This document shows positions 1,307 through 14,565 of a stretch of DNA of 14,565 bases, one piece after another. The number at the start of each line of letters is the position of its first letter. Within the stretch, counting starts at the first letter, position 1. Position numbers and translations under genes: made by a program. The notes beneath the pieces were generated by a model that saw only the letters and a list, made by a program, of their open reading frames with translations, did not search any database and was not told where the DNA came from. The stretch comes from Halobacteriales archaeon QH_10_70_21 (GTDB taxonomy: Archaea; Halobacteriota; Halobacteria; Halobacteriales; Haloarculaceae), in assembly GCA_003021325.1 (NCBI GenBank), contig PXQM01000109.1, positions 1-14,565 on the forward strand, given 5' to 3'.

Positions 1307-2791
1307 TCACTCCTGTGCCGACGCGATCCAGCTCTCGGCGCGGGTAGTGCCGACGTCGGCGGCCTCGGCGACCGTCTCGGGGTCGGCCCCGGCCAGTTCC
1401 GCCACCGTCTCGATGCCGCCGTCGCGGAGCCGCTTCGCGTAGGCCGGGCCGATGCCGTCGACGGTCTCGAGGTCGGCGCCCCCGATGCTTGCCGTGTCGC
1501 CGTCCTCGGCGGTGGTCGAATCGTCGTCCTCCGCGTCCGAAGCATCCTCCTCGGCGCCGGGTTCGGTGACCTCGACGGTGACGCCCTCGTCGGGCTCGAC
1601 CGCCGCGAGGTCGTCGACGTCGACGTCGATTTCCTCGATGCCGATCTGGTCCGTCGACTCCTCGACGGCGGTCTCGACCTCGGCGAGGTGGTCGGGGTCG
1701 TCCGTGGACTTCTCGATGTACCACTCGGCGACGCGGGGCCAGACGTCCCGGTGGCTCGACCCGGAGACGGCCAGGCCGATGTGGCCCGTGGGGTACTCGA
1801 TGACCTCGGTGTCGTCGCTGCCGACGAGCTCGTTGAACGGCTTGCTCGCCTCCGGCGGAATGAGGTGGTCGTACTCGCCCGTTATCTGGAGGACGGGCAC
1901 CTCGATGGAGGTGACGTCGACGTGCTCGCCGCCCAGGTGTAGCTCGTTGCGCTGGAGCTTGTTCTCCTGGTAGATGTCCCGGAGGAACTGCACGTAGGTC
2001 TCGCCGGCGACGTCGATGCCCTCGTCGAGCCACTGCTCCATGCGGCCGAAGTTCCGCACGAAGTCGTCGTTGTCGATGTTGTTGTAGAGGCGGACGTACT
2101 TCGAGACGTAGTTGGCGACCGGGTCCATCAGCGCGAAGCCGACGTCGAGCATCTCCGCTGGGACGTTGCCGTAGGCCTCGACGACGTCCTCGGGGTCGTA
2201 GTACTCCTGGTCGCCCCACAGCTCGAGGACGCCGCCGGTCCGGTCGAAGCAGAGGCCGGCGGCCATCAGCCCGAGCGTGCGGACCTTCTCCTGGTGGAGG
2301 GCGGTGTACATGACGGTCATCGTCCCGCCCATGCAGTACCCGAGGATGTTGATCCGGTCCTGGCCGGAACGCTCCCGGACGACGTCGACGCAGTTGTCGA
2401 TGTAGCGGTTGACGTAGTCCTCCAGCGTGAGGTGCTGGTCGAGCCGCGAGGGCTCGTTCCAGTCGACGAGGTAGACGTCGTGGCCCGCCTCCAGCAGCCG
2501 CCGGACGACGCTGCGGTCCGGCTGGAGGTCCAGGATGAACGGCTTGTTGATGAGGGCGTAGACGATGAGGATGGGCGTCTTGTGCTGCTCGTCGGTCAGC
2601 GACTCGTAGTGCAGGAGCTCCAGTTTGTTCTCGGTGTAGACCACCTCGCTGGGCGTGTGGCCGACGTCGACCTCCTCGAGCTTCTCGACCTGCTCGGGGA
2701 CGTCCGTCGACTTCTGGAAGGCATCGGTCGTCGCCTCCAGCAGCTCCTGCTGGAAGTTCAGCGGCGCGAAGAAGGGGTTCTCGGAGCTCAT
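1307..2791 (-). CDS. phaC: Class III poly(3-hydroxyalkanoate) synthase catalytic subunit PhaC, with C-terminal helix-hairpin-helix domain
   Basis: This 494-residue subunit polymerises hydroxyacyl-CoA into PHA at the granule surface together with PhaE. The alpha/beta-hydrolase core carries the lipase-like box GYCMGG with catalytic Cys153, Asp308 in GEYDHLIPP and His337 in PTGHIGL. The substrate-side motif [10 protein letters not shown] is at 107-115. After the core (to about 365) comes a very acidic linker (about 370-435) and then a helix-hairpin-helix module (about 436-494) with [17 protein letters not shown]. The start ATG overlaps the phaE stop as ATGA, and a GAGG Shine-Dalgarno sequence lies 7 nt upstream inside phaE, which suggests translational coupling. 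The HhH module is unusual for a PHA synthase outside haloarchaea and suggests contact with DNA or a partner protein. Family and active site are certain; the role of the tail is inference. Confidence 0.96.
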
Positions 2792-3330
2792 TCCAGGGCC
2801 TCGATGACACGGTCGAGCTTCTCCTCGACGCGGTGCTGCCGGCGCTCCAGCTCGACGAGCCGCTTGCCCACCTCCTCGACGTCGGACTGGGTCGGCATCC
2901 CCATCTCGGCGAGCGTCTCCTCGCCCATCTCGTCGGTCTGCTCCCGGAGGTCCATCATCGCGCTGACGAGCTGGCCGTTGGCCGCCGCGAACGCCGACGT
3001 GCTCATGACCTCCTTGAACGCCTCGTTGGCGCTCTGCAGCCAGATGTCACGGAACTCCTCCGGGGCGACGTCCTCGCCCTGTGCGGCGTCGGTGGTCCGC
3101 TCGAAGGTCTGCTCGGCAGCGTCCATCCACACCTCGTAGGCGTTGTCGTACCCCTCGACGCCCGAGGCGAGCGCCTCCTCGTCCGGGACGCTGTCCTCCA
3201 TGGCGTCGGCCCACGACTCCATGAAGGCGGCGCTCATCTCCATGTTCTGCTCCATGGACTCGACCATCGCGTCGTTCATGTCCTCGACCAGTCCTTGCCA
3301 CTGCGCCGCCGGGTCGTCACTGTCGCTCAT
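2788..3330 (-). CDS. phaE: PHA synthase subunit PhaE (haloarchaeal type)
   Basis: This 180-residue acidic, helical protein is the partner subunit that class III PhaC needs for activity. It has Met-rich, amphipathic helices in the first third and a [15 protein letters not shown] segment (95-109) of the kind conserved in archaeal PhaE. The C-terminal ~35 residues ([20 protein letters not shown]) look like a coiled coil. It is much shorter than bacterial class III PhaE proteins, as is usual in haloarchaea. It overlaps phaC by 4 nt (ATGA). A TATA-like box lies 24-29 nt upstream of its ATG, so phaEC can be transcribed as its own leaderless unit. The assignment depends on both the sequence pattern and the position directly before phaC. 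Confidence 0.92.
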
Positions 3331-6105: not shown

Positions 6106-6609
6106 TCAGCGGGTCACGACCAGCAACGCGACCCGTTCCAGGACGAGCGCCTCCAGTCCCCGGTCGGTCGCCGACAGCTCCGCGTCGCCGACGTCGAAGA
6201 ACGCCCGGACCGTCGCCTCGTCGTAGTCGCCGAGCGTCTCGGCCGGCGTCAGCGCCCCGGCGACGGCCCCGGCGGCGCCCGCCTCGTCGCCGCCGTCGAC
6301 GAGGACGACCGCCGGCGTCGTCCCCTCGCCGAGACCCATCTCCAGCGCGCGGTTTATCTGCCGCCGTCCGGCCGCGTACAGCAGTATCTCGACGCCGCGG
6401 TTCCGGGCGATGGCCTCGCCGCGGGCCCGCTCCCTGTCGGCCAGCTCGACGGCCCGCTCGAGGTGCCGCCGGGAGACGACGTACCGGGCGTCGAACGCCT
6501 GGACCGTCGCGCCGTGCTCGTCGCCGACCGCGCCCAGCCGGTCGACGAACGCGCCCACCTCCGGGAACTCGTCGCCGCCGACCTCGACGGTACCCTCGAC
6601 GACCCGCAT
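6106..6609 (-). CDS. cgi121: KEOPS complex subunit Cgi121
   Basis: This 167-residue protein is the small KEOPS subunit that binds the Bud32 kinase and helps present tRNA during N6-threonylcarbamoyl-adenosine (t6A) synthesis at position 37 of ANN-decoding tRNAs. The N-terminus VEGTVEVGGDEFPEVGAFVD, the central DARYVVSRRHLERAVELADR and the block GVEILLYAAGRRQINRALEM (72-91) match the Cgi121/TPRKB fold as I know it. Late motifs ALTPAETLGDYDEATVRAFF are also typical. Its length is normal and I see no frame damage. The ATG at 6609 overlaps the last base of the hel308 stop (TGATG), with a GGTGA Shine-Dalgarno sequence 6 nt upstream, so it is translated from the same message as hel308. This neighbour pair is common in haloarchaea. 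Confidence 0.9.
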   Translation of the reverse strand: MRVVEGTVEVGGDEFPEVGAFVDRLGAVGDEHGATVQAFDARYVVSRRHLERAVELADRERARGEAIARNRGVEILLYAAGRRQINRALEMGLGEGTTPAVVLVDGGDEAGAAGAVAGALTPAETLGDYDEATVRAFFDVGDAELSATDRGLEALVLERVALLVVTR

Positions 6610-8678
6610 CAGAAGTCACCCAGATCGGCCTGGCCCTGGCCGTCCTCGGCGGCGCTCTCGTCGTCCTCGTCGGGGCCCGCCGCCGGGTCCGGCGTGACGC
6701 CGTCCATCCCCGGGTGTCGGTGGCCCGCCGCCTCGAGGACGTTCTCGGCCGTCTTCTCCCGTCCCCGCAGCGCCCCGAGGACGACCGACTTGTCGGCCGC
6801 CCGGAGGTCCGCGCGGGTCTCGATGCCGGCGTCGAAGAGCCGCCGGGCGCGCTTGCGCCCGACGCCGCGGACGCCCGCGAGGTCGATGAGCTCCTCGCCG
6901 ACGCCGTGCTGGACGCGCTTTCGCGCCTCGCGGATGGCCGGCACGTTCGCGAGGTCGAGCTCGCCGGCCAGCGACTCGGCGGCCCCGAGCAGCCACTCGG
7001 CGGTGTCGACCTTCCCGCGGATGTCGCCCGGGCCGACGCCGTACGCCTGGGCGATGTCGTTCTCGTCGACCTCGCTGGCCCAGTCCTCCAGCATCCGGGC
7101 GGTCTTCAGCGCCGACAGCCAGTCCTCGAAGCGCCCCTCCTCGAACTCGCTGGGGAGCTCGCCGCAGAACTCCTCCTCGCGCTCGTATGCCAGCATCGTG
7201 TACTCCTCGTGGTCGCCCGACCGGAGGTACAGCTCGTACATGTCGGGCGTCCGGGAGACGAGGTGGTACAGCCCCAGGGCGGTCGGCTCGGCGGTCGCCT
7301 CCAGCCCGTCGATTATCTCGGCGGCGCTCATCGGGTCGAGGTAGAGCCGCGAGACGGTGTGCCCGAGGGTCGTCGCCTCGAGCCGCTCGTCGCCGCGGAC
7401 GCCCTCGACGAAGTCGTTCCGCTCGAGGTACTCCAGTGTCGTATCGACGACCCGCTCGAGGTTGTCCGTCCCCCCGCTGTGGCGGTACTGTGTGGCGTAC
7501 AGCGTCTGGTCGAGGAACTCCAGCAGCGCCCCCCGGGAGTCCGCGAATCCGGAGGCGACCGTCGCCAGGATGTGGGTCCGCATCGACGGCTCGCGGGCCA
7601 GCTTCGACTCGACGGGCTCGGGGTCGGCCCAGACGTACCGGTCCAGCAGCTCGTCCAGCTCGTCGTGGCTGCTGGCGAGCAGCAGCGCCTCGCCGTAGGG
7701 CCACGACCCGCCGGGACGGCGTGTTGACGCCCGCCGCGAGCGTCGGCGTCGCCGCGACCACCTTGATGAGCCGGTCGCGGAAGGCGTCCTCGACGAGGGA
7801 GCGGTGCTCGCTCGCCAGTCCGGCGTGATGGAACGCCGCCCCCTGCTCGACGCAGTCGGCGAGGTCCTCGCTCGTCTCCGTGTCGGAGACGTCCCGGAGC
7901 TCCCGGGCCAGTTCGGCGAGACGCTCGCGCTCGTCGGCGTCGAGGCCGTCGCGGGTGGTCGTGGCCAGCCGCTTTGCGGCGCCCTCGGCGTTGCGGCGGG
8001 CTGCTGGGAGCCGTCGCCGTAGTGGACCGCCTGCCCGTAGTGGACGCCCTTCCGGAGCTCGATCGGCCGCCACGTCGAGTCCACGAGGGCGGCGTCGAGC
8101 CACTCGGCGACGTCGCCGGCGTTGCCGACCGTCGCCGACAGCGCGACCACCTGGACGGCCGGGTTGACGCGACGGAGCTTCGCGAGCGTCACCTCCAGGG
8201 TCGGCCCCCGCCCCGGGTCGTCGACGAGGTGGACCTCGTCGGCGACGACGCAGTCGAGGTCGTCGACCCACGGCGCACCGTTGCGCACCAGCGAGTCGAC
8301 CTTCTCGCTGGTGGCGACGATGACGTCCTTGTCGGCCAGCCACTCGCCCGAATCCTCGTAGTCGCCGGTCGCCACTCCCACGGAGACGCCGTGCTCCTCG
8401 AAGACCGAGAACTCCTCGCGCTTCTCGCTTGCCAGCGCCCGCAACGGGACGATGTACAGCGCCTTGTCGCCCCGTTCGACGGCCGACAGCATCGCCAGCT
8501 GGGCGATGAGCGTCTTGCCGCTGGCGGTCGGCACCGAGGCGACGAGGCTCTCGCCGGCCGTCACCCCCGCCTCGACGGCCTCGGCCTGCGGGGGGTACAG
8601 CTCGCGAATCCCCTCCTCGCGGAGGCTGTCGACGAACCACGAGGGGACGCCCGCAACGTCGGCGGTATCCATTGTCAT
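6609..8678 (-). pseudogene. hel308: Hel308 superfamily 2 helicase, two internal deletions with compensating frameshifts
   Basis: Hel308 is a 3'-5' DNA helicase acting at stalled forks. Residues 1-226 are normal: Q-motif-like [11 protein letters not shown], Walker A TASGKT (51-56), [13 protein letters not shown] (147-150) and SAT (181-183). After GDGSQQ (about 8000) the family sequence moves to another frame ([11 protein letters not shown], then [20 protein letters not shown], then [15 protein letters not shown]). It returns to the first frame at about 7700 with [20 protein letters not shown]. Missing are roughly 30 codons with motif IV and roughly 35 codons with motif VI (QMxGRAGRP). The first frame stays open throughout, so a 689-residue product would carry about 100 scrambled residues (227-326) and no working second RecA domain. 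The winged-helix and ratchet regions and the HhH ([17 protein letters not shown]) follow. The tail QADLGDF resembles a PCNA-binding PIP box. A second ATG at 8672 (MDTADV) fits the promoter spacing slightly better than 8678. Confidence 0.88.
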
Positions 8679-8697
8679 CGGGTAGTGCGCCGTCCGA

Positions 8698-8703
8698 TTT
8701 AAA
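8698..8703 (-). promoter_or_regulatory. TATA box of hel308
   Basis: TTTAAA lies about 22 nt upstream of ATG 8678 and about 28 nt upstream of ATG 8672 (centre to start). The second distance is closer to the usual leaderless spacing and favours a start at 8672. Confidence 0.6.
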
Positions 8704-8746
8704 CTGTCGTTCCGGGCGCGGCTCGGCGCCCGTTCTCCATCGCACG

Positions 8747-8753
8747 TTTATTA
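8747..8753 (+). promoter_or_regulatory. TATA box of the sensor kinase gene
   Basis: TTTATTA is centred 28 nt upstream of the ATG at 8778. A GGGGAGG run at 8768-8774 lies only 3 nt before the ATG and would be upstream of the predicted transcript start, so it is probably not a working ribosome site. Confidence 0.6.
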
Positions 8754-8777
8754 GGGAATGGGCCGAAGGGGAGGCAC

Positions 8778-11453
8778 ATGGCCCTCGGGGAGGACTCAAT
8801 CGACGTGCTCCACGTCGACGACGACCCCAGCCTCGTCGACGTGGCCGCCACGTTCCTCGAGCGCGAAGAGCCGCGGCTCGACGTCGAAACCGAGACGGAG
8901 CCGGCGGCCGCTCTCGACCGGGTCGTCGACGGCGACGTCGACTGCGTGGTCTCCGACTACGACATGCCGCGGATGGACGGGCTCGAACTCTTCGAGGCCG
9001 TCCGCGAGGAGCGCCCCGACCTCCCGTTCATCCTCTTCACCGGCAAGGGAAACGAGGCGGTCGCCGGCGAGGCGGTCTCCGCGGGCGTCACCGACTACCT
9101 GCAGAAGACCACGGGCACCGAGCAGTACGGACTGTTGGCCAACCGAATCACGAACGCGGTGGACCAGCACCGGACCGAACGGACCCTCGACGCGGAACGC
9201 CGGCGCTTCCGGCTCCTGTTCGAGCGGCTCCCGCAGCCGGTCGTCGAGATCGACCTCGACGGCGACACTCCGGTCGTCCAGCGGGTCAACCACGCCTTCG
9301 AGAACGTCTTCGGCTACGCGTCCGACGAAATCGTCGGCGAGTCCCTCGACGAGTACATCGTGCCCGACGAACACGAGACGGAGGCGACGGAGATGACCCG
9401 GCGGGTCCGGTCGGAATCGCCCGGTTTCACGACCGAGGTCACGCGCAGGACCGCCGACGGTGACCGGCGGTTCATCCTGCAGAACGCGGCCTACGAGGAC
9501 GGCTCCGGCGGGTTCGGCATCTACACGGATGTCACGGACCGGCGACGACGGGAGCGGGAGATAGAGCGACAGAACACGCGGCTGTCGGCGCTCTTCGAGA
9601 GCTTCCCCGAACCGACCGTCGCGTACGCCTACGAGGACGGCGAGCCGCACGTCGTCGAGAGTAACGCGGCGTTCACCGAGGTGTTCGGCTACGACGAGTC
9701 GACGGCGGTCGGCCAGCACATCGACGACCTCGTCGTCCCGCCTGACCGCCGCGACGAGGCCGACCGCATCGACAAACGGGTCAAGACGGGCGAGGCGATT
9801 GACGGACACCTCCGTAGGCAAGCGGCGGATGGCGTCCGGGACTTCCGGTTCCGGAACATCCGGCTGCCCGACGACGAAACCATCGACGGGTACGCTATCT
9901 ATGCGGACGTCACCGAACGACAGCGGCGCGAACGGGAGCTGGAACGGCGGAACGACCTCTTCCGGAAGGCCCAGGACCTCGCCGACGTCGGCGCCTGGGA
10001 GTACGACGTCCGGGCCGACGAGCTGACCTGGACCGAACAGGTCTACGATATACACGGGGTCACGGGCGAGTTCGAGCCGACGCCCGATGCGGCGGTCGAG
10101 TTCTACCACCCGGAGGATCGCGAGGAAATCCGCTCGGCGGTCGAGCGCTGTCTGACCGAGGGCGAGCCGTACGACCTCGAACTGCGGCTCGTCACCGTCG
10201 ACGACGAGGAGCGGTGGGTGCGGACGCAGGGCGACCCGCAGGTCGAGGACGGCGAGGTGGTCCGGCTCCGGGGGGCGATACAGGATCTCACCGCCCGCAA
10301 GGAGCAGCTCTCGACGGTGCGAGGGCTCCAGTACCGCGCCCAGCGGCTCGTCAGGGAGCGCGACCGCGAGCGTATCGCGGAGATCGCGGTCGACATCGCC
10401 AGCGAGGCGCTCGACCTCCCGTTCGCCGGCGTCCACCTCGCGAACGACGGGGTCCTCGAGCCGGTCGCGGTCACGGCGGCGGGTCGTGACCGTCTCGGGG
10501 AGGCGCCGGCCTACGAGCGGACCGACCCCGACCGTACCGCCGACCGGTTCAACTGGGGCGTCTTCGAATCCGGCCAGCCGGCCGTCGTCGACGACATCCG
10601 GGAGCACGACTCGCTCGACGAGACCGAGACGCCGACCCGCAGCGGCATGGTCCTCCCGCTCGACGCCCACGGGGTCCTGGTCGCCTCCTCGCCGGAACCG
10701 AACGCCCTGACGGAATCGGACCGCTACCTCGCGGACATCCTCGCGACGGTGCTCACGGCGGCGCTGGACCGCACCGAGCGGGAGCGGACGCTCGAGGAGC
10801 AGAAACGGCTCCTCGAGGAGCGGACCGAGCGGCTCGACGAGCTGGTGAGCGTCATCAGTCACGACCTCCGCAGCCCGCTGAGCGTCGCGGACGGCCGCCT
10901 CGAGCTCGCCCGGAGCGACTGCGACAGCGAGCACATCGACGCCGCCGTTGCCGCGGTCGACCGGAGCCGGAACATCGTCGACGACCTCCTCGCGCTCGCC
11001 AGCGAGGGGGACCGCGCCGTCGAGCGGACGGACGTGTCCCTCGCAGGCCTCGTCCGGGACAGCTGGCGCAACGTCGAGACCGGGGGGGCCACGCTCGACG
11101 TCGAGACCGACCGGACCGTCCTGGCCGACCGGAGCCGGCTGCGACAGCTCATCGAGAACCTCGCCCGGAACGCGGTCGAGCACGGCGCCGGCGGCAGCGA
11201 GGGGAGCGTGACGGTCACGGTCGGCGACCTCGAGGAGGGCTTCTACGTCGCCGACGACGGGGTCGGCGTCTCGCCCGACGAGCGCGAGGCCGTCTTCGAG
11301 AGCGGTTACTCGACGGACGAGAGCGGGACCGGGCTGGGGCTGAGCATCGTCGAGCAGGTGGCCCGCGAGCACGGCTGGGAGCCGGCGCTCGTGACGAGCG
11401 CCGAGGGCGGCGCCCGATTCGAGTTCTCCGGCGTCGCGTTCGTCGAGGAGTGA
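8778..11453 (+). CDS. Hybrid sensor histidine kinase: REC-PAS-PAS-PAS-GAF-HisKA-HATPase
   Basis: This 891-residue soluble signalling protein has no membrane segment. An N-terminal receiver domain (about 8-125) has acid-pocket Asp14-16, phosphoacceptor Asp60 in VVSDYDMP, Thr88 and Lys110. PAS domains follow at about 143-255, 265-380 and 392-508; the first two end in [11 protein letters not shown] and [11 protein letters not shown] linkers, and the third has HPEDREEI and a PAC-like end. A GAF-like domain (about 515-665) precedes a coiled linker. HisKA has phosphoacceptor His695 in SHDLRSPL. The ATPase has N-box [12 protein letters not shown] (791-802), G1 DDGVGV and G2 GTGLGLSI. All catalytic residues are present. 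There is no output or DNA-binding domain, so it must signal by phosphotransfer. The ligand and partner are not visible and no separate response regulator is adjacent. It ends 10 nt from the convergent DUF547 gene. Confidence 0.93.
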
Positions 11454-11463
11454 CCGCCGGCGG

Positions 11464-12198
11464 CTACGCGAACTTCCCCCCGGCCCGCTCCCAGTTCCAC
11501 GACCGGTAGCGGAGCGACGGGCTCACGCCCTCCGGAACCGCGTCGTACTCCCGGAGGAACGCCCGGATACCGTCCGCGCCGCCGAAGTCGCCCCGGTACC
11601 AGAGGAAGACGCGGGGGACCCGCGCGACGCCGTCGTCGGGGTCGTACGCCACGGTCCCCTCGAGGTACGCCGCCGTCGCCAGGTCGAGCTGGTCGTCGAC
11701 GCGGTCGGGCTCGTAGGCGCGGATGGCCGGGCAGCTCTCGGCGCCGCAGTTCAGCGCGAAGTGGACCCGCGGGTCGCACTCGACCCGGTAGCGGCGCTCG
11801 AAGGGCCACGGAATCCGCGGCAGGTAGCCGAGGCCGTACTTCGAGCGGCCGCCCCGGAGGATGCCCTGCTCGATGGCGTCGAGCCCGAGCGCCGTGCCGG
11901 CGACGGTGACCGCGTCGCCCCGGAAGAACCGGACCGAGCGGAGCGGGCTCTCGTACAGTTCCGGCCGGCGCTCCAGACGGAGTTGCGTGCCGGCGTTGTA
12001 GAGGTTCAGCCAGAAGGCCAGCGCCGTCTCGCGGTCGTTCCGGACCGTCGCCAGGTCGTCGTGGTCGTAGCCGGCCAGCGTCTCGAGGTAGCCGTCGGGG
12101 TCGTCGCCGACCTTGGTGGCGACGAGCAGGTCGGCGGCGGCGTCGGTCGGCGACCGCTTCCCGCGGCTCTCCTCGCCCGTGGCGGCGACGTCTGCCAT
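11464..12198 (-). CDS. DUF547 domain-containing protein
   Basis: This 244-residue protein carries the DUF547 signature: ALAFWLNLYNAGTQLRLER in the first half and VHFALNCGAESCPAIRAYEP in the second, with the Cys pair of the second motif present. ATAAYLEGTVAYDPDDGVAR and VPRVFLWYRGDFGG follow, as expected. The biochemical function of the domain is not established. There is no clear signal peptide or membrane segment, so a cytoplasmic place is likely. I chose ATG 12198 because a T-rich element (TTTT, about 12223-12226 on the minus strand) lies 25-28 nt upstream, while the extra upstream residues of the open frame cover the divergent promoter region. It is divergent from the radical SAM gene and convergent with the kinase, so it is a single-gene unit. 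Confidence 0.85.
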   Translation of the reverse strand: MADVAATGEESRGKRSPTDAAADLLVATKVGDDPDGYLETLAGYDHDDLATVRNDRETALAFWLNLYNAGTQLRLERRPELYESPLRSVRFFRGDAVTVAGTALGLDAIEQGILRGGRSKYGLGYLPRIPWPFERRYRVECDPRVHFALNCGAESCPAIRAYEPDRVDDQLDLATAAYLEGTVAYDPDDGVARVPRVFLWYRGDFGGADGIRAFLREYDAVPEGVSPSLRYRSWNWERAGGKFA

Positions 12199-12295: not shown

Positions 12296-12301
12296 TTTAT
12301 T
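12296..12301 (+). promoter_or_regulatory. TATA box of the radical SAM-methyltransferase operon
   Basis: TTTATT lies 26-31 nt upstream of the ATG at 12327, a good leaderless arrangement. It supports 12327 rather than the longer open frame beginning at 12243. Confidence 0.6.
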
Positions 12302-12326: not shown

Positions 12327-13805
12327 ATGATCCGAAGCGAGGAACGCCTCGAATCGACGACGAGCCTCTGTCCGGAGTGCCTCGAGCGCGTTCCGGGGTA
12401 CTACGAGGAGCGGGACGGGTCGGTCCACCTCACCCGCACCTGCGACGAGCACGGGACGGCGAGCCACGAGGTGTGGGGGTCGGTCGACCACTGGGAGTGG
12501 GCCGGGGGCCTCGGTCCCGATTTCGACTTCGACGGCGACGCCGAGTTCACCGTCGGGAACGACCACGCCTGCCTGGCGGTCGTCGAGGTGACGCAGGACT
12601 GCAACCTCTCGTGTTCGTTCTGCTTCGCCAGCTCCGGCCCCGGCGGGAAACAGCTCGCCCACCAGGAGGTCGTCGACCTGCTGGAGACGGTCAAGGCCGG
12701 CGGCGGCCCCCGCCCCATCCAGTTCTCGGGCGGCGAGCCGACCGTCCGGGAGGACCTCCCCGAACTGGTCGAGACGGCCGTCGAGATGGGCTTCGAGCAC
12801 ATCCAGGTCAACACCAACGGCGTCAAGCTCGCCCACCAGGAGGGCTACGCCCGGCGGCTCGCCGACGCCGGGGTCACCGCAGTCTACCTCCAGTTCGACG
12901 GCCTCGAGGCCGAGACCTACGAGGAGATACGCGACGCCGCCATCGCCGAGGAGAAACACGCCGCCCTCGAGCACTGCCGGGAGGCGGGGCTCTCGGTCGT
13001 CTTGGTGCCGACGGTCGTCCCCGGAACGAACGACCACGAGATGGGCGACATCGTCCGGTTCGCCCTGGAGAACCTCGACGTCGTCGAGTCGGTCAACTTC
13101 CAGCCCGTCGCGCAGTTCGGCCGCTACGAGGACCACGGCAGCCGGTACTCGATGGACCGGGCGGCCGGCGCGCTGGCCGAGCAGGTCGACACGGTCGACG
13201 CCCGCGACTTCCTGCCCATCCCCTGCTGTTCGTCGTACTGCCAGATGGCGACCGTCCTGCTGCCGGCCGACGACGGGCCGGCCCCGCTGACCGACTTGGT
13301 CGACGCGTCGCTGTTCGACGAGCTGTCGGGGATGGTCGACGAGTCCGACTGGATGGAGCTGCTGGCGAGCACGAAGGCCGGCAAGCAGAGCGCCTGCGAC
13401 ACCGCGGGCTGCTGTAGCGCCGAGCTACCGCCGGGCGCCGGCGAACTGCTCGACCGGACGCTTCCGGTGTCGTTCACCGGGTTCATGGACGCCAACGCCG
13501 CCGACGCCGGCCGGCTCTCGAACTGCTGTGTCTCCGTACCCACGCCGTCGGGCGAACTCGTCCCCTTCTGTGCGTACAACATGACGAACGAGGACGGCGA
13601 GTACGCCATCCGCAACCGGAACGGCTGGGGCGGCCGCGACCACGTCGACGGGGTCGCCGTCGACGCCGACGTCCCCGTGGAGGTCGACGGCGGGACGGAG
13701 CTGACGGTGAGCTACCCGACCGCCGACGGGACCGACGCGAACGGCGCCGACGGCGGCGAACCGACCGGCTGTGGCCCCGACGCCGACTGCTGTGGGGGCG
13801 AGTGA
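12327..13805 (+). CDS. Tes-like radical SAM enzyme (MJ0619 / tetraether lipid synthase family)
   Basis: This 492-residue enzyme has the radical SAM triad CNLSCSFC (Cys92, 96, 99) binding the catalytic [4Fe-4S] cluster, followed by the SAM-contact motif QFSGGEPTVRED and NTNGV. An N-terminal metal-site-like segment has Cys15 and Cys18 (CPEC) and Cys39 before HG. Further Cys groups lie at 300/301/305, 357/362/363, 400/401 and 415, enough for auxiliary Fe-S clusters. The layout matches Tes, which in methanogens and thermophiles joins lipid chains to make tetraethers and is reported to hold three [4Fe-4S] clusters and one rubredoxin-like iron. Haloarchaea carry Tes homologues yet are known for diether lipids, so the substrate here is open. 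The C-terminus has an extra low-complexity segment ending in GCGPDADCCGGE. A methyltransferase gene follows with no gap. The family call is strong and the reaction unknown. Confidence 0.87.
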   Translation: MIRSEERLESTTSLCPECLERVPGYYEERDGSVHLTRTCDEHGTASHEVWGSVDHWEWAGGLGPDFDFDGDAEFTVGNDHACLAVVEVTQDCNLSCSFCFASSGPGGKQLAHQEVVDLLETVKAGGGPRPIQFSGGEPTVREDLPELVETAVEMGFEHIQVNTNGVKLAHQEGYARRLADAGVTAVYLQFDGLEAETYEEIRDAAIAEEKHAALEHCREAGLSVVLVPTVVPGTNDHEMGDIVRFALENLDVVESVNFQPVAQFGRYEDHGSRYSMDRAAGALAEQVDTVDARDFLPIPCCSSYCQMATVLLPADDGPAPLTDLVDASLFDELSGMVDESDWMELLASTKAGKQSACDTAGCCSAELPPGAGELLDRTLPVSFTGFMDANAADAGRLSNCCVSVPTPSGELVPFCAYNMTNEDGEYAIRNRNGWGGRDHVDGVAVDADVPVEVDGGTELTVSYPTADGTDANGADGGEPTGCGPDADCCGGE

Positions 13806-14565
13806 ATGCGGAACGTCCTCGAGTCGGCCGTCTCGGACCCCTGGGGGACGATGCAGCTGTTCGTCGACGGGCCGATGCACCCCGGCGGGACCGAGGCGAC
13901 CGCCCGACTGCTGGACCGGGCGGGCGTCGGCGCCGACACGCGCCTGCTGGACGTCGGCTGCGGGAGCGGCGAGGCCCTGGAGTCGACCCGCGAGCGGGGC
14001 GGCACCGCGGTCGGCCTCGACGTCGAACCCCGGACCGACGGCATCGTCCGCGGCGACATGAGCCGTCTGCCGTTCGCCGAGGGTGGCTTCGACGTCGTCC
14101 TCGCCGAGTGCGTGCTCTGTCTGTCGGCCGACTACCCGACCGCGCTCGCCGAGGCCCGCCGGGTCCTCGACGACGGCGGACGGCTGGCCTTCTCCGACGT
14201 CGTCGTCGACGGCGAGGTGCCGGACGTGCCCGACGCGATGGCGGAGGCGTTCTGTCTGTCGGGCCACCGCGACCGAACGGCGGTCTTCGGGGCCATCGAG
14301 GACGCCGGCTTCGCGGTCGTCGACTCCCGCACCCGCCGCGAGGACCTGCTGGAGATGCGGGACGAACTCGCCGGCAAGGTCGACCACGAGCGACTGCTCG
14401 GCCTGCTCGGCGAGAGAGGCGAGCGCGCGCTGGCGGGCATCGAGACGCTCGAGGCGGCCGTCGAGTCCGGCCGAATCGACTACGTCTCGGTGGTCGCCGA
14501 GGCCGACGGCGACGTCGGGGCCGGCGCTTCGGGCGCGGCCGCCGGAACCGGGGCCGAAGCCGGCG
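13806..14565 (+). CDS. Class I SAM-dependent methyltransferase (3' end outside window)
   Basis: The ATG at 13806 follows the radical SAM stop codon directly (TGA-ATG), and 253 codons run open to the window edge. Motif I is LLDVGCGSGEAL (about 47-58), the acidic strand-2 end is VGLDVEP, and later motifs are MSRLPFAEGGFDVVLAECVL and ARRVLDDGGRLAFSDVVVDG. This is the Ubie/Methyltransf_11 pattern of small-molecule or lipid methyltransferases. Residues EAFCLSGHRD (about 147-156) resemble methyltransferases linked to Tes-like proteins in bacterial clusters, but I offer that from memory only. The last residues turn into an Ala/Gly-rich tail, so the stop is probably close. The junction implies co-transcription and coupled function with the radical SAM enzyme; the substrate is not known. 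Confidence 0.85.
   Translation, partial: MRNVLESAVSDPWGTMQLFVDGPMHPGGTEATARLLDRAGVGADTRLLDVGCGSGEALESTRERGGTAVGLDVEPRTDGIVRGDMSRLPFAEGGFDVVLAECVLCLSADYPTALAEARRVLDDGGRLAFSDVVVDGEVPDVPDAMAEAFCLSGHRDRTAVFGAIEDAGFAVVDSRTRREDLLEMRDELAGKVDHERLLGLLGERGERALAGIETLEAAVESGRIDYVSVVAEADGDVGAGASGAAAGTGAEAG

Follow-up and report, generated by a model that had tools for sequence, protein, structure and literature searches.

A rare haloarchaeal pairing of a Tes-like radical SAM protein with an ArsM-like methyltransferase, possibly an organometalloid-making module

We analysed a window of 14,565 bp (the whole stretch of DNA under study) from the Halobacteriales archaeon QH_10_70_21 (GenBank assembly GCA_003021325.1, contig PXQM01000109.1), whose right end carries a radical S-adenosylmethionine (SAM) gene and, directly behind it, a methyltransferase gene. 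The nearest relatives with a name likewise indicate a haloarchaeal origin. The first encodes a relative of tetraether lipid synthase (Tes) and of the TrsS family, and the second a relative of arsenite methyltransferase (ArsM). We tentatively propose that the two form a rare two-enzyme module, encoded both chromosomally and on plasmids, whose product is an organometalloid, most probably an organoarsenical, rather than a tetraether lipid. Since residues typical of Tes are missing, the two enzymes may couple carbon groups to a metalloid, for example arsenic. Of the readings weighed, a further pairing of a radical SAM enzyme with an ArsM-type methyltransferase, here seemingly built on the Tes/TrsS scaffold, fits the evidence best.

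The pair and its nearest features are laid out as follows.
11464..12198, minus strand: divergent DUF547 protein, 244 aa with the chosen start (PF04784, E 2.3e-26)
12296..12301, plus strand: TATA-like TTTATT, -31 relative to the ATG of the radical SAM gene
12327..13805, plus strand: radical SAM protein of the Tes/TrsS superfamily, haloarchaeal clade, 492 aa (492 codons)
13806..14565, plus strand: SAM-dependent methyltransferase related to the DVU_1556 family and to arsenite methyltransferases, the gene being cut by the window end

The TGA of the radical SAM gene (13803-13805) immediately abuts the methyltransferase ATG (13806), the junction that the sequence-only reading of this DNA had described. 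The methyltransferase coding sequence has no stop inside the window. Since 253 codons are visible and haloarchaeal orthologues mostly have ~232-258, little of the gene is likely missing. The same reading placed both genes behind one leaderless promoter. A TATA-like hexamer at -36 to -20, searched for with a narrow pattern, was present at 8 of the 28 haloarchaeal loci whose start could be placed, the window included, while 200 base shuffles of the upstream regions gave a mean of 1.5 and a maximum of 4. The promoter element is therefore compatible with leaderless initiation, and carries no direct information on transcription. Rfam and transfer RNA scans of the window found nothing.

Two checks could have refuted the sequence-only reading, membership of a characterised family and absence of a conserved pairing, and neither did so; the gene-neighbourhood survey found the pairing conserved. 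Among 30 haloarchaeal loci, the methyltransferase gene lay directly downstream on the same strand in all 29 with enough DNA; at the remaining locus, L016, the DNA stops within the radical SAM gene. Two of the loci, L077 and L081, are copies on one plasmid. In 391 genomes of the class Halobacteria, a radical SAM match at E 1e-40 was found in 17, namely 16 with a member of the haloarchaeal clade and one, G059, with a Tes. A methyltransferase match at E 1e-20 was also found in 17, the same 16 and a lone fragment in genome G320. The methyltransferase is thus present in 16/16 carriers of the radical SAM clade, and on the counts by locus and by genome chance pairing was rejected. With 16 of 391 genomes carrying it, the pair is rare. 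Five plasmid records carry it as well, among them pHsi540 of Haloarcula sinaiiensis ATCC 33800, and in that of Halalkalicoccus the radical SAM gene looks broken. In a control search, the laboratory strain Haloferax volcanii showed no match at E 1e-60.

Some copies deserve separate description. The circular 525-kb plasmid of Haloarcula halophila has the cassette twice (L077 and L081: peroxiredoxin-like, DUF547, radical SAM and methyltransferase genes), 467 kb apart by coordinate and ~58 kb the short way, with one methyltransferase copy shortened by a TAG. On the Halalkalicoccus plasmid (L177, 7001-8370), radical SAM matches fall into two pieces, annotated as a short hypothetical protein and adjoining an annotated methyltransferase gene; this is probably a broken copy. 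The radical SAM gene of L017 is broken too. Around the methyltransferase fragment of G320 (L174, contig C37), no radical SAM match was found in the surrounding 19 kb, and the fragment is probably a remnant left by decay.

We next compare the radical SAM protein with its relatives, residue by residue. The alignment held 120 haloarchaeal relatives (the best 120 of 7345 matches to the window protein, ranked by score), 120 TrsS-type proteins (the best 120 of 5006 matches to a TrsS protein) and 17 Tes proteins (L080 of genome G059 among them), all 17 of which exceed the curated Tes cut-off. Five bacterial rows were left out (L018, L107, L109, L126, L145), three since the 120 proteins stood for TrsS and two for poor alignment. 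Counts below refer to these sets.
12369..12452, plus strand: rubredoxin-type metal site C15-x2-C18...C39-x2-H42, in 120/120 listed haloarchaeal relatives
12600..12623, plus strand: radical SAM cluster motif C92-x3-C96-x2-C99, in 120/120
13224..13241, plus strand: C300-C301-x3-C305, each Cys in 120/120
13410..13415, plus strand: vicinal cysteines C362-C363, in 119/120 and 120/120 haloarchaeal rows, with no Tes counterpart
13476..13478, plus strand: T384 at the position of the labile Met439 ligand of Tes, Thr in 120/120
13524..13571, plus strand: C400-C401, V404 and C415 of the C-terminal cluster domain, each in 120/120

The sequence-only reading had credited the protein with the Cys layout of Tes, and this proved partly right. 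The rubredoxin-type CxxC...CxxH site, of the same motif type as C9-x2-C12-x20-C33-x2-H36 of Methanocaldococcus jannaschii Tes (PMC9433317, in excerpt), is there, as are the CxxxCxxC motif and the three Cys that are invariant in the Tes C-terminal domain; C305 is invariant in Tes also. The ligand set of the N-terminal auxiliary [4Fe-4S] cluster (C73, C77, C80 and a His) is present in 17/17 Tes and 0/120 haloarchaeal rows, and TrsS has it (118, 119 and 119 of 120 at the three Cys columns, 120/120 for His). Where the haloarchaeal proteins have T384, Met stands in 17/17 Tes and in 117/117 TrsS proteins with a residue there. V404 occupies the Tyr459 position, which is Tyr in 17/17 Tes and Val, Ile, Thr, Leu or Met, never Tyr, in 117 TrsS rows. 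Both Tyr459 and Met439 are described as fully conserved across 1000 archaeal Tes (PMC9433317, in excerpt). An insert of at least 10 residues after 'FPIP' is found in 17/17 Tes and 20/35 other bacterial rows, and in none of the 120 TrsS or 120 haloarchaeal proteins.

Extra cysteines are present too. C301 (120/120) and C362 (119/120) mark the haloarchaeal clade, while C300, C401 and C363 are partly common to the clade and TrsS. The stretch of C362 and C363 is a gap in 17/17 Tes, and the two positions are Cys in 24/120 and 65/120 TrsS; in the structure model of the window protein, the predicted local distance difference test score is <50 at residues 360-364, around this Cys pair. In one TrsS gene, L108, an in-frame TGA matches C300 by eye ('FIPPG*EEPHC' against 'FLPIPCCSSYC'), where its relatives have Cys. 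Judged from the reading frame, this is as expected of a selenoprotein form, in keeping with the listing of TrsS as a selenoprotein family in the table of a review, the sole text on TrsS that was found (PMC13188914, in excerpt).

By curated profiles neither protein falls inside a characterised family, which supports the sequence-only reading. The radical SAM protein scores 288.2 bits with the Tes model NF045702 (cut-off 450) and 342.9 bits with the TrsS model NF045646 (cut-off 490), and the radical SAM proteins of five haloarchaeal genomes likewise fall below the TrsS cut-off. A quick maximum-likelihood tree was built from 85 rows, after dropping two short ones (L016, L017) of 87. The 28 haloarchaeal rows form one clade on a long stem of 1.02, with a support of 100 in the Shimodaira-Hasegawa-like approximate likelihood ratio test (SH-aLRT), and Tes forms a separate clade (SH-aLRT 99). 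The haloarchaeal clade is sister to three TrsS rows (SH-aLRT 96), a relation that is tentative because long branches meet there, with a warning from the program to that effect.

The window protein shares with Tes (the GDGT-MAS enzyme MJ0619; 7tol, 7tom), where GDGT stands for glycerol dialkyl glycerol tetraether, the overall fold, the rubredoxin-type site and the radical SAM cluster, three features by which a Tes is recognised, as well as three C-terminal-domain Cys. It differs from Tes in lacking the N-terminal cluster ligands and the FPIP insert, in having Thr for Met439 and Val for Tyr459, and in its extra cysteines, its methyltransferase partner and its score. That it is a genuine Tes was rejected, with the N-terminal ligands, Met439 and Tyr459 all missing (0/120). 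TrsS is closer, being the top-scoring curated family and, tentatively, the nearest group in the tree, with C400-C401, no Tyr at the Tyr459 position, no FPIP insert, and C300 at the in-frame TGA of L108. However, TrsS retains the N-terminal cluster and the Met, neither of which the haloarchaeal enzymes keep (0/120), and no DVU_1551 or DVU_1553 partner was recognised beside the haloarchaeal pair.

The single Tes met in the genome survey (L080 in G059, contig C1, 643765-644676, minus strand) scores 677.4 bits against the cut-off of 450, retains the N-terminal cluster, Met439 and Tyr459, and falls within the Tes clade. Beside it stands a small F14-family gene, judged thioredoxin-like by eye, and no partner methyltransferase was found. 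G059, the sole such genome among the 391, is a candidate tetraether-making haloarchaeon.

The protein of the second gene, METHYLTRANSFERASE, has DVU_1556 (NF045667) as its top curated family, at 121.4 bits for the incomplete window copy and 124.9 bits for the complete orthologue of L025, against a cut-off of 155. Arsenite methyltransferase (NF008823) comes second, at 67.9 bits against a cut-off of 263, and the best PDB match is the arsenite methyltransferase 5evj (E 1.7e-8). Two sites of the protein carry a Cys at an ArsM position.
14109..14120, plus strand: C102 and C105, C102 aligning with the 'NC' Cys of arsenite methyltransferases
14253..14255, plus strand: C150, aligning with the 'ECLAGA' Cys of arsenite methyltransferases

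C102 and C105 are each present in 29/29 haloarchaeal rows and in 3/3 and 2/3 bacterial rows, respectively; C150 is present in 28/28 readable haloarchaeal rows (one has X) and in 3/3 bacterial rows. Of the four ArsM cysteines, C102 and C150 match the two on the C-terminal side, the two positions that suffice for arsenic already alkylated. The protein resembles ArsM in its SAM-methyltransferase core and at C102 and C150, and differs from it in having neither the N-terminal CC nor the GCG cysteines and in scoring far under the cut-off. It resembles DVU_1556 methyltransferases, which accompany bacterial TrsS-type radical SAM proteins (L018, L026, L172), as its top family, and differs from them in remaining below their cut-off.

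Redox and DUF547 genes recur around the haloarchaeal pair. A DUF547 gene is near the pair at 17/30 loci (9.7 kb off in L008) and lies within ~1.3 kb of the radical SAM gene in 11/16 carrier genomes, a proximity not expected from random placement because the genomes exceed 2 Mb. A peroxiredoxin-like neighbour was found by clustering at 18/30 loci and by profile in L012; in 6/6 proteins scanned the best NCBIfam family was SelL-related, at 45-53 bits, the cut-off being 120. Clustering put a small CREC protein, thioredoxin-like, near the pair at 6/30 loci, and inspection by eye did so in L004 and L011. An ArsC-like gene immediately precedes the pair in at least 2/30 loci (L008, L010). Pfam families were tallied, 25 commonest each, in two sets of 71 and 80 near neighbours picked by hand from 266 predicted genes, partner methyltransferases included; HTH_20, which is not specific, was found in 4 of the 80.

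Bacterial arsenic clusters offer a parallel. The radical SAM enzymes ArsL and ArsS form C-As bonds (PMC12159101, in excerpt); ArsL and ArsM make arsinothricin, and ArsS with ArsM makes arsenosugars (PMC8552651, in excerpt). These systems share with the haloarchaeal pair the two-gene logic of a radical SAM enzyme and an ArsM-type methyltransferase, and ArsS clusters also contain DUF547 and a SelL-like redox protein. DUF547 lies within ~7 kb of ArsS in four of five plasmid genera compared, Hymenobacter, Acinetobacter, Cupriavidus and Burkholderia (B. glumae), and was not seen near ArsS in the fifth, Pseudanabaena. This proximity was read from coordinates and annotated views, the coordinate records being nearly all near-identical Burkholderia plasmids, and a sixth organism name (Candidatus) was left out. 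In the arsenosugar-type clusters of B. glumae and Roseomonas, the radical SAM gene adjoining DUF547 has TrsS as its best NCBIfam family, at 106.3 and 100.4 bits, far below the TrsS cut-off. The Acinetobacter ArsS cluster has a peroxiredoxin-like protein whose best family is SelL-related (66.3 bits, below cut-off). ArsS itself belongs to another radical SAM family, and Acinetobacter ArsS matches no predicted protein of the 30 haloarchaeal loci (E 1e-5). A Mesorhizobium region and three unannotated records supplied no context of use.

Another link is the protein P0147 (744 aa, one chain on one contig), which scores 540.6 against 490 as TrsS and then 356.9 against 263 as arsenite methyltransferase. 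P0147 puts one TrsS beside one ArsM, unless the contig is chimeric. The sequence-only reading had also pointed to similar bacterial clusters. This is borne out as to kind, a TrsS-type protein with a DVU_1556-family methyltransferase, and does not extend to frequency, with 3/40 bacterial rows having a recognisable adjoining methyltransferase (L018, L082, which is L026, and L124) in a search with seven queries at E 1e-6, mostly in 1.5-kb flanks. At L026, on a plasmid of Mycolicibacterium vanbaalenii, the TrsS-like/methyltransferase pair is near genes for a PhnD-type binding protein, a Rv1681-family radical SAM protein, CcdA and a disulfide oxidoreductase. The PhnD and double radical SAM arrangement of Roseomonas L178 resembles that of L026.

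In the mechanism that we infer, as to metalloid, carbon donor, placement of the extra cysteines, order of the two steps and product alike, SAM bound at the C92/C96/C99 cluster would give a 5'-deoxyadenosyl radical. A carbon radical, from a co-substrate or from SAM itself, would then be captured at the pocket of the C-terminal cluster, where the labile Met is now Thr and which the extra cysteines (C300/C301, C401) possibly line. There the carbon would be joined to thiolate-held As(III) or a similar atom. The methyltransferase would grip the trivalent product via C102/C150 (and C105) and methylate it. Supplying reductant, or handling the product, would fall to the divergent peroxiredoxin-like, thioredoxin-like and DUF547 proteins.

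Several observations weigh against the organoarsenical proposal. Alignment to ArsM shows neither of the two N-terminal ArsM cysteines in the methyltransferase; most ArsM enzymes have four conserved and required Cys (PMC8552651, in excerpt). The ArsC-like proteins score 62.6 and 38.7 bits against an arsenate reductase cut-off of 174.3, and the 25 Pfam families seen most often in each neighbour set include no arsenic efflux or regulator family. DUF547 is widespread, in 164/391 Halobacteria genomes, and five other annotated DUF547 stretches show no arsenic gene. The Acinetobacter peroxiredoxin-like protein matches just 1/30 haloarchaeal loci (BLAST, E 1e-5). DsrE and TauE/SafE genes, which stand near several pairs, equally suit sulfur chemistry. 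On the bacterial side, P0147 could be a genuine fusion, or two neighbouring genes run together through loss of a stop codon or through faulty assembly; pairing with a methyltransferase is not general; two TrsS loci have a DVU_1551 NTP transferase (409.9 bits against 315) or a DVU_1553 AMP ligase (340.3 against 300); and no arsenic family scored above cut-off among the TrsS neighbours scanned.

An alternative, which we consider unlikely, is sulfur insertion followed by S-methylation. A C-S bond would be made from a sulfide of the C-terminal cluster and the resulting thiol S-methylated, amounting to a methylthiotransferase split over two genes. The Thr that replaces Met439 in 120/120 relatives is a possible oxygen ligand, and lipoyl synthase sacrifices an auxiliary cluster that has a Ser ligand. 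Genes for DsrE, TauE/SafE, peroxiredoxin and thioredoxin-like proteins in the neighbourhood of several pairs would fit, and a similar redox set with DUF547 stands on a Halorubrum plasmid, in an annotated stretch showing no such pair. Tes, moreover, makes a C-S intermediate on its C-terminal cluster (PMC9433317, in excerpt). However, an invariant Cys pair at two ArsM positions would not be expected of an S-methyltransferase, and sulfur insertion accounts neither for the fusion of TrsS to ArsM nor for the position of DUF547 beside arsenosugar genes.

Rather less probable is the synthesis of a small cofactor, perhaps for a molybdenum enzyme, with the pair as a stripped-down version of the bacterial TrsS/DVU_1551-1556 set. 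The nearest curated families, TrsS and the DVU_1556 methyltransferase, would agree with it, and so would the DVU_1551 and DVU_1553 genes adjoining bacterial TrsS genes. On the other hand, the N-terminal cluster and the Met, both kept by TrsS, have been lost from the haloarchaeal enzyme, and no recurring DVU_1551- or DVU_1553-like gene was seen in the neighbour families or the commonest-Pfam tallies, no search aimed at those models having been made.

The lipid or quinone product first suggested by the sequence-only reading, which would call for a phytanyl or isoprenoid terminal carbon to be activated and then methylated, is improbable: Tyr459 and Met439, invariant in Tes, are lost in 120/120, the FPIP insert of 17/17 Tes is found in 0/120, the tallies of the 25 commonest Pfam families per neighbour set include no lipid family, the methyltransferase and the context lean to metalloid or thiol chemistry, and the lipid analyses of carrier strains mentioned in an excerpt of PMC8941075 found no GDGT. 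Least likely of all, in our view, is an organoarsenical variant in which the family would form C-As bonds on the tetraether-synthase scaffold by joining arsenic (or a similar atom) to an isoprenoid terminal carbon, giving an archaeal arsenolipid whose arsenic the partner methylates.

The window holds other genes, all to the left of the pair. At 1307-2791 (minus strand) is a PhaC-like polyhydroxyalkanoate synthase that ends in a helix-hairpin-helix domain (PF14520, residues 440-494), adjoined at 2788-3330 (minus strand) by a PhaE-like gene. A helicase-like, putatively Hel308-like, frame at 6609-8678 (minus strand) seems to go off register mid-way, where the neighbouring frame 6616-8799 seems by eye to continue; frameshifts, real or from assembly, are a possible cause. 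At 8778-11453 (plus strand), just past the DUF547 gene, is a receiver-PAS-GAF-histidine kinase protein of 891 aa.

Tes homologues in Halobacteria have been reported before. Zeng et al. 2022 (PMC8941075), in the excerpted text, found them in 20 Halobacteria genomes, naming Halobellus clavatus and Halorientalis regularis, cited lipid analyses without GDGT in strains with a Tes homologue, and left the function open. Since our locus L012 is Halobellus clavatus and a member of the haloarchaeal clade, the existence of these homologues was already known. Among the records listed in the literature searched (titles, abstracts and passages, with few subscription journals), we found no haloarchaeal pair of a Tes-like protein and a methyltransferase and no link between TrsS and arsenic; nor did the conserved partner, the ligand losses or a link to ArsM-type chemistry turn up there.

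The loss of Met, Tyr and the N-terminal cluster gives a sequence-based reason to exclude this clade from the GDGT producers in genome surveys for palaeoclimate proxies. The open function of the homologues becomes a concrete question, whether carrier strains contain an organoarsenical or another organometalloid. If the proposal is true, the pair would provide an additional radical SAM scaffold for carbon-metalloid bond chemistry and would bring the uncharacterised TrsS family of bacteria into that field.

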